Shown here in pieces: positions 37,831-40,497 of a stretch of 64,000 bases of DNA. The stretch comes from Thioalkalivibrio sp. K90mix (GTDB taxonomy: Bacteria; Pseudomonadota; Gammaproteobacteria; Ectothiorhodospirales; Ectothiorhodospiraceae), in the NCBI RefSeq assembly GCF_000025545.1, contig NC_013889.1:310001-374000 (forward strand), read 5' to 3'. A model generated the notes under the pieces. The model had not been told where the DNA came from. It made no database searches and worked only from the letters and a program-made list of their open reading frames with translations. How positions within the stretch are numbered: position 1 is the first letter of the stretch; every line of letters begins with the position of its first letter. A program made the position numbers and the translations under genes.

Positions 37831-38322
37831 TCAGCTCAGGTGGAGCAGCCAGCGCCGACGCATATCCCTTAGCAGCACGAAGATCAACGGCCACACCAGT
37901 GCGCTGGTCGCCACTGGCGCCCAGTACCAGGCGCTACCGGGCGGCAGCCCAATCGCGCCCTGCGGCCACAGGGCCAGGAGCTTGTACAGCGCTGTGAGGA
38001 CGGCCACCACGATGGTCTGTTGCCAGACGGGGTAAACCCGCAGGCGTGGATGAATCTGCAGCACGATGTACGCCACCACCGCCAGGGCGATGGCGTTCTG
38101 TCCGAGTAACTGGCCGTAAAGGGCGTCCAGTAGCAGCCCCATGATAAAGGCCGTCAGCACCCCGAAGCGCTGGGGGAAGGCCATGATCCAGTACACCAGC
38201 GCCAGCAGGAGCCATTCAGGCCGGGCCGGGGGCAGCGCATCGGGGATAGGCACGATGGACAGGGCCAGCGCGACGACCAGGGTCAGGGCGATCAGCCAGG
38301 GGATGCCCAGCGCGCGGTTCAT
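37831..38322 (-). CDS. mreD: Rod shape-determining protein MreD
   Basis: 163-residue inner-membrane protein with about five hydrophobic segments, part of the elongasome that positions peptidoglycan synthesis. LPPARPEWLLLALVYW and MGLLLDALYGQLLGQNA are typical MreD signatures. It overlaps mreC by ATGA and is the last gene of mreBCD. The element end at 37751 lies between it and the DUF1244 gene. Confidence 0.95.
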   Translation of the reverse strand: MNRALGIPWLIALTLVVALALSIVPIPDALPPARPEWLLLALVYWIMAFPQRFGVLTAFIMGLLLDALYGQLLGQNAIALAVVAYIVLQIHPRLRVYPVWQQTIVVAVLTALYKLLALWPQGAIGLPPGSAWYWAPVATSALVWPLIFVLLRDMRRRWLLHLS

Positions 38323-39251
38323 GGGTTGTCAGCCGCCTCCGGCATATCGGCCTCGCCCTCCGGTTCTGCTTCGCGCCCGGTCGTCTCCCCTTCTTCTTCC
38401 GGGTGGGCATCGGTGTCCGCGTCCGGACGTTCTCTGGTCCACAGCAGCAGGACCTCACGCGAGCGGTCCAGGGCCGCTAGAGGCTCGGCCTGGATATCAA
38501 GAAACGGTTGCCCTGGCTGGCGTTCGACCGAGATCACCCGGGCGACCGGGTAGTCCGGCGGGAAACGTCCACCGAGCCCGGAGGTCAGCAGGAGATCGCC
38601 CTCCTCGATGTCCTCCTGGGGCGGGACGTGTCGCATTTCGAGGCGCCGCGGGTTGCCGGTGCCAACGACAATGCCACGCAGACCGGTACGGGCACTGAGC
38701 ACAGGCAGGGCATGGCCGGGGTCGGAGATCAGCAGCGCGGTGGAGCTGACCATTTGGGTGGACAGGACCTGTCCGATCACGCCATCGGGGTGGATGACCG
38801 GCTGCCCCGGGTATACACCGTGTCGGTTGCCCTTGCTGAGTACGATCTGCTGGCGGAAGGGGTCCAGGTCCACGGCCAGGAGCTTGGCGATCTCGACGCG
38901 CTCTTGTGCACGCTCGGCGGTATTCAGAAGGGCGCGCAGGCGGTCGTTTTCCATCTGCAGTGCATCGAAGCGCAGCTGGCGGGCCCGCAGCTCCGCGTTT
39001 TCTTCGCGCAGGATGCGGTTCTCGGTAATCAGGTCTTCGCGGCTGGTGAAGGATTCGAGCAGCCGGCTGCCTGCCCGGATCGGCGCATCGACCGCAACCT
39101 GCAGGGGGTAGGCCACCGTGGACAGTGCGTTGCGCACCGTCTGCAGCTCGTTCAGTCGGTGATCCAGCGCCATCAGCGCCACACCCAGCAGGATCACCGC
39201 GAGCAGGCGCAGAGTGGGCGATACACCCAGTCTGAACAGCGGCTTGCTGAT
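38319..39251 (-). CDS. mreC: Rod shape-determining protein MreC, probable ATC start
   Basis: 310-residue periplasmic elongasome scaffold: one N-terminal membrane segment (about residues 8-28), a coiled coil (LITENRILREENAELRARQ) and a beta-rich C-terminal domain ending in an acidic E/D-rich tail. The conserved N-terminus (SKPLFRLGVSPTLRLL) is encoded in frame immediately after an in-frame TAA at 39255-39257, but no ATG, GTG or TTG occurs before a GTG at 39197 that would delete half the membrane anchor. An ATC at 39249-39251 has a perfect GGAGG seven bases upstream and is the likely start. A sequencing error (ATG to ATC) is the alternative. Confidence 0.88.
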   Translation of the reverse strand: MSKPLFRLGVSPTLRLLAVILLGVALMALDHRLNELQTVRNALSTVAYPLQVAVDAPIRAGSRLLESFTSREDLITENRILREENAELRARQLRFDALQMENDRLRALLNTAERAQERVEIAKLLAVDLDPFRQQIVLSKGNRHGVYPGQPVIHPDGVIGQVLSTQMVSSTALLISDPGHALPVLSARTGLRGIVVGTGNPRRLEMRHVPPQEDIEEGDLLLTSGLGGRFPPDYPVARVISVERQPGQPFLDIQAEPLAALDRSREVLLLWTRERPDADTDAHPEEEGETTGREAEPEGEADMPEAADNP

Positions 39252-39258
39252 GGCTTAA

Positions 39259-39263
39259 CCTCC
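39259..39263 (-). promoter_or_regulatory. Shine-Dalgarno that fixes the mreC start at ATC
   Basis: GGAGG on the minus strand, seven bases before the ATC at 39251. No other in-frame initiation codon lies within range of it. Confidence 0.7.
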
Positions 39264-39338
39264 GGTTGCGGGTCGTGATTGGGTCAGGGGCGCGCCACGG
39301 CTGGCAGGTGCGATGGGAAGGGCCCCACCAAACTTCCA

Positions 39339-39361
39339 GGATGCGGGGCGACGCCCCATCC
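39339..39361 (-). terminator. Hairpin in the mreB-mreC gap
   Basis: GGATG(C)GGGGC-GAC-GCCCC-ATCC forms a GC-rich stem with one bulge, 19 bases after the mreB stop. No T-run follows. It may attenuate transcription so that mreB is expressed above mreCD. Confidence 0.45.
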
Positions 39362-39379
39362 CCCGATCCAGCCCGGAGT

Positions 39380-40497
<1,118 letters not shown>

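Follow-up and report, generated by a model that had tools for sequence, protein, structure and literature searches.

Our analysis strongly supports an AUC codon as the start of mreC translation in Thioalkalivibrio sp. K90mix. AUC, AUU or AUA (collectively AUH) occupied the homologous position in all mreC genes sampled from the order of this organism and in most gammaproteobacterial families sampled, where these codons went with strong Shine-Dalgarno (SD) sequences. It is quite likely that initiation with fMet at this AUH codon, being inefficient and disfavoured by IF3, sets MreC and the coupled MreD below MreB, as the pattern of conservation suggests.

Results

The mreC gene of the window

The window, by which we mean the whole stretch of DNA analysed, comprises 64,000 nucleotides (contig NC_013889.1, positions 310,001 to 374,000), and the source genome has 2,985,056 bases in 2 contigs. 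The features considered here are as follows.

38319..39251, minus strand: mreC coding sequence, 310 codons plus stop (TIGR00219 and PF04085 over cut-off)
39249..39251, minus strand: AUC start codon of mreC (homologous codon ATC, ATA or ATT in 46 of 46 mreC genes of the order)
39259..39263, minus strand: SD sequence GGAGG, 7 nt before the mreC AUC (from sequence)
39255..39257, minus strand: in-frame TAA two codons 5' of the mreC AUC, which excludes an upstream start (from sequence)
39195..39197, minus strand: GTG, the first downstream NTG (mreC codon 19, in the membrane anchor); not accepted as main start
39380..40426, minus strand: mreB, the upstream gene, with an ATG start; internal control (PF06723)
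37831..38322, minus strand: mreD, its ATG overlapping the mreC stop (ATGA, 38319-38322), probably coupled to mreC (PF04093)
39252..39379, minus strand: mreB-mreC spacer, 128 nt (from sequence)

The mreC frame opens with ATC AGC AAG CCG CTG TTC AGA and holds no ATG, GTG or TTG before codon 19, and the spacer between the SD and the AUC reads TTAAGCC (7 nt). The encoded N-terminus, ISKPLFRLGVSPTLRLLAVILLGVALMALDHR, matches that of E. coli MreC, MKPIFSRGPSLQIRLILAVLVALGIIIADSR. The protein scored 173 bits against TIGR00219 (cut-off 92.75) and 135.7 bits against the Pfam MreC profile PF04085 (cut-off 28). Together with this profile match, the mreBCD operon context (mreB and mreD as neighbours) and the N-terminal anchor identify the gene as mreC. 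An earlier note on this DNA had described the ATC start, the GGAGG 7 bases before it, the TAA two codons before it and the lack of any NTG until the membrane anchor, and each of these details proved correct.

The start codon in the order and the class

We searched for the window MreC in 30 genomes of the genus, 29 of which yielded mreC, and in 47 genomes of the family (mreC in 46), a set that is also the entire order as sampled. The homologous first codon was ATC in 44 of the 46 genes of the order; the other two had ATA (L016) and ATT (L059), and an NTG was found in none. In 37 of the 44 distinct order loci the SD was GGAGG or AGGAGG at a distance of 7 nt. The earlier note had presented the ATC start as a feature of a single genome; it is instead shared across the whole order and by most of the sampled families of Gammaproteobacteria. 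The agreement of separate assemblies (46/46 ATC, ATA or ATT) led us to reject sequencing error as the source of the ATC, and the comparison of this codon among relatives makes an ATG at 39249-39251, which would have spoken against the note, very unlikely. The weakest case in the order is L059 (genome G046), where the ATT has no clear SD, an in-frame GTG lies 9 codons upstream and the start is uncertain.

For the class, 370 gammaproteobacterial genomes were drawn, 338 of which matched the window protein and 337 E. coli MreC. Class loci were the better-scoring matches to these two queries, so that the sample is not random and leans towards their relatives, and the start codon was assigned automatically, by a rule that takes the conserved Phe of M/I-K-P-L-F as its anchor. 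Outside the order this gave 165 distinct loci, E. coli K-12 included, of which 115 carried AUH (ATC 46, ATT 41, ATA 28); the remainder carried ATG (26), TTG (2), GTG (1) or GTT (1), or were left unassigned by the rule (20). Read by eye, six of these 20 look like AUH (L102, L139, L172, L174, L181, L186), although they were kept out of the 115, and the others are mostly ATG, GTG or TTG. The counts leave out eleven more locus entries, 10 of them distinct, that did not pass the alignment rule. By family code (79, the order's own family included), 52 families were all AUH, 4 were mixed and 23 had no AUH. Two of the loci show GTT, L142 at the homologous codon with GGAGG 6 nt upstream and L162 beside an ATC; both are possible GUU starts.

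An extra batch of 9 gammaproteobacterial loci (some from genomes already counted) and another 17 was read by eye. It contained two 6-Mb genomes of one genus, both reading TAG GAG CCG GTC ATC AAA CCG ATA TTC, alongside several loci of E. coli type with ATG; several more distant ones had ATG or GTG. We also read by eye 20 loci fetched from other classes, one without a match and several ambiguous; most of those that could be read have an ATG, GTG or TTG available as start, and they lack an IKPLF-type N-terminus. Furthermore, records of Klebsiella, Proteus, Aeromonas and Acinetobacter show mreC with ATG or GTG, and in a Legionella record mreC is annotated from a GTG overlapping mreB, the homologous codon not being AUH. 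These records indicate that the AUH start is not universal.

Two genes served as controls. In the same loci mreB began with ATG in 191 cases, GTG in 2 and TTG in 1, and with AUH in 0 of 194 (7 more loci, in which the motif was unmatched, were set aside). The positive control infC, counted by eye in 30 loci read out of 41 genomes of the order with a match, began with AUH in all 30 (ATC 15, ATT 14, ATA 1).

Start codon, internal codon or downstream GTG

The start position was weighed against two other readings of the same frame. MreC might really begin at the GTG of codon 19 within the membrane segment, which is the first standard in-frame start codon and the one that automatic annotation would pick; a P. 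aeruginosa record is in fact annotated from such an internal GTG. We regard this as very improbable, since codons 2-18 are constrained as protein: over 43 loci their pN/pS was 0.46 in frame versus 1.55 and 1.94 in the other frames, and resembled that of stretches after codon 18 (0.51 and 0.57). Moreover, relatives of the E. coli type have the same N-terminus encoded from an AUG, the first downstream NTG falls anywhere from codon 3 to codon 27 depending on the locus, truncation would cut the membrane anchor, and the SD is placed 7 nt before the AUC. The constraint on codons 2-18 and the shifting position of the first NTG thus disfavour the GTG at 39197, which the earlier note had named as the competing start. 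The conserved AUH might otherwise be an ordinary Ile codon within a longer protein starting farther upstream. Both a start codon and an Ile codon would drift among ATT, ATC and ATA, the latter avoiding ATG too, so that drift alone proves nothing, and an in-frame upstream NTG before the stop is present in 13 of the 115 class loci. Against this stand the window TAA two codons upstream and, among 157 AUH loci, at least one in-frame stop within 15 codons upstream in 106, as compared with none in codons 2-16 (0/157). The interval from the upstream stop to the AUH is free of NTG in 34 of 44 order loci and in 101 of 115 class loci, SDs lie mostly 5-9 nt before the AUH codon, and the AUH position is the Met position of AUG-starting relatives. 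An internal Ile is therefore just as far-fetched as the GTG start. The contrast between protein-like evolution after the ATC and in-frame stops before it also excludes a chance resemblance. With all order genes carrying AUH and codons 2-18 constrained as protein, the start of mreC at ATC is strongly supported.

SD strength and evolution of the codon

In the class loci the median SD energy was -6.9 kcal/mol for AUH and -2.75 kcal/mol for AUG (p = 1.6e-8, related rows not being independent). An SD weaker than -5 was present in 10 of the 115 AUH loci. Of the 165 class loci 26 are AUG and 9 of these have an SD of -5 or stronger, which shows that weak initiation is not universal. E. coli mreC, with AUG and a weak SD, is an exception to the combination of AUH and strong SD; AUG lineages, the relatives of E. 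coli among them, mostly tend to weak SDs, which may be a second route to a weak start.

Changes of the codon were followed on a FastTree tree of MreB+MreC with 175 rows. Over 9 independent pairs on this tree the SD went the same way in 6.2 and the opposite way in 0.6 on average, and the independent-pairs test of SD against codon gave a median p of 0.03 (range 0.016-0.51), which is nominally significant only. The tree required at least 45 start-codon changes, among them 10 AUH/NUG changes, and at least 38 changes within AUU/AUC/AUA. The position of the start, its conservation, its association with the SD and the mreB control could all be read directly from the sequences compared.

The neighbours of mreC and the mreB-mreC spacer

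All 27 order loci and 98 of 124 class loci had an mreD start that overlapped or abutted the stop of mreC (distance -20 to 0); the mreD start taken was the one nearest to that stop, a choice that favours overlap. A 4-base overlap was the commonest arrangement (93 of 151 loci).

On the mreB side, CTCCGG (39373-39378, minus strand) closely follows the mreB stop and forms the reverse complement of CCGGAG (39260-39265) in the mreC SD. Overlapping initiation from mreB was rejected as a candidate, since the median mreB-mreC gap did not differ between class loci with AUH (76 nt) and those with AUG (65 nt). Likewise, AUH and AUG class loci did not differ in RNA structure around the start (-35 to +35; medians -12.9 vs -13.2).

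Two further readings accept the AUC as the true start and dispute its role. Control might be exerted mainly through translational coupling or the RNA structure of the spacer, with the codon secondary: CTCCGG might possibly mask the mreC SD until ribosomes finishing mreB relieve it. Among the 14 order loci with a CCGGAG SD, 13 have CTCCGG in the spacer, at varying distance, and the window spacer folds strongly. However, CTCCGG is absent from many other members of the order, which have spacers of 20-27 nt, and class-wide the complementarity to the SD is not in excess (4.51 observed vs 4.51 shuffled, 68 loci), which leaves this reading unlikely. We give about as little credence to the notion that the AUC was inherited by accident, is neutral to selection and plays no part in dosage. 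The presence of AUG in some lineages would suit such an accident, but AUG is one substitution away, and yet at least 38 changes occurred among AUU, AUC and AUA compared with about 10 between AUH and NUG. In addition, AUH goes with a strong SD and AUG with a weak one, and AUH never occurs at mreB in the same loci.

Discussion

Our preferred reading remains a weak start at the AUH codon. The strong SD would place the 30S subunit at the mreC AUC, where the initiator fMet-tRNA would pair with AU and mismatch the third base, and IF3 would make initiation inefficient, as at infC and pcnB. Because fMet is inserted whatever the third base, selection would see initiation strength alone, and it would hold the codon within AUU/AUC/AUA with free drift inside that class. 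The mRNA is presumably common to mreB, so the weak start would put MreC well below MreB, and since mreD starts within the mreC stop, mreD would be held down along with mreC. In short, the non-AUG start probably keeps MreC scarce on purpose. The interpretation in the earlier note had combined the ATC start with an IF3-dependent limitation of MreC relative to MreB; the start has held, and the limitation is the most economical reading, because AUH is kept with strong SDs, mreB uses NTG, and AUG mreC genes mostly have weak SDs. From this pattern we infer the low efficiency of the start, its IF3 dependence and its role in dosage.

More tentatively, the mreC AUH may be an old gammaproteobacterial control point, through which IF3 and the state of initiation (growth rate, cold, stress) would set MreC and the coupled MreD and tie elongation to translation. 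The E. coli lineage would then have swapped to AUG with a weak SD, hiding the control point. This wider proposal is a good deal less certain than the weak start itself.

The non-AUG codon probably accounts for the wrongly marked mreC start in some genome records. In the P. aeruginosa record CP123788.1 (L264:216-300), which is linear, 1,131 bases long and labelled plasmid, the mreC frame reads TAG GAG CGG ATC ATC AAA CCG CTA TTC, and the annotated CDS starts at a GTG inside the membrane segment, at codon 18 from the first ATC (51 bases downstream). In a structural paper on P. aeruginosa MreC (PMC8137920), both the cytoplasmic portion and the membrane segment fall within residues 1 to 14, a numbering that appears to fit the shortened gene model. 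A core rod-shape gene, that of Pseudomonas included, thus appears to use a start codon that gene finders seldom allow, and N-termini, residue numbering and constructs of MreC in some records are based on a wrong start. Conserved N-termini upstream of the annotated start offer a way to find more such genes. If the weak start sets the ratio of MreC to MreB, elongasome stoichiometry becomes testable in the native operon by a single-base change. The finding also suggests that genes under IF3 start-codon control extend beyond infC and pcnB. We found no report of a non-AUG mreC start in the open-access literature searched, subscription journals lying mostly outside the search. AUH starts are of a known kind; that open-access literature yielded no core morphogenesis gene with AUH in most of the gammaproteobacterial families sampled.

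Comparison with known non-AUG start genes

The window mreC shares sequence features with the AUH genes of the infC and pcnB kind on which IF3 discriminates. The AUH codon is present in 46 of 46 order and 115 of 165 class loci, the SD is strong and at standard spacing (37/44 in the order; AUH median -6.9 kcal/mol in the class), and no usable standard start is nearby (a TAA closes the frame two codons upstream, and codon 19 is the next NTG). E. coli infC, which encodes IF3, starts with AUU and resembles mreC in its AUH start, in the SD upstream and in the retention of AUH. infC is autoregulated by its own product; MreC has, to our knowledge, no role in initiation, and differs from infC in this respect. 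E. coli pcnB reportedly starts with AUU as well, and the likeness lies in a single AUH start limiting expression, which for mreC would be so on our reading. On these features mreC would join the infC/pcnB type of start gene, with an unusually wide conservation.

Other cases come from more distant bacteria. In Streptomyces, sigR starts with a GTC that IF3 represses; this start fixes the ratio to the operon partner, and the gene is misannotated in available genomes (PMC5472188). sigR is thus like mreC in its non-standard start, extended RBS, two-product operon ratio (which would apply to mreC if our reading holds) and misannotation, and unlike it in using GTC, being confined to one genus, having an antisigma factor as partner and having been tested experimentally. 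In S. aureus, AUU and AUA starts with extended SDs yield about 10% of AUG (PMC13009471), which offers a precedent for how large the effect at mreC may be. Its genes ccpN (AUA) and cvfC1 (AUU) resemble mreC in their conserved AUH and extended SDs (PMC13009471), but they are different genes, from Firmicutes. E. coli K-12 mreC has the same protein, operon and N-terminus as the window gene, and differs in its AUG start and in having no clear SD.
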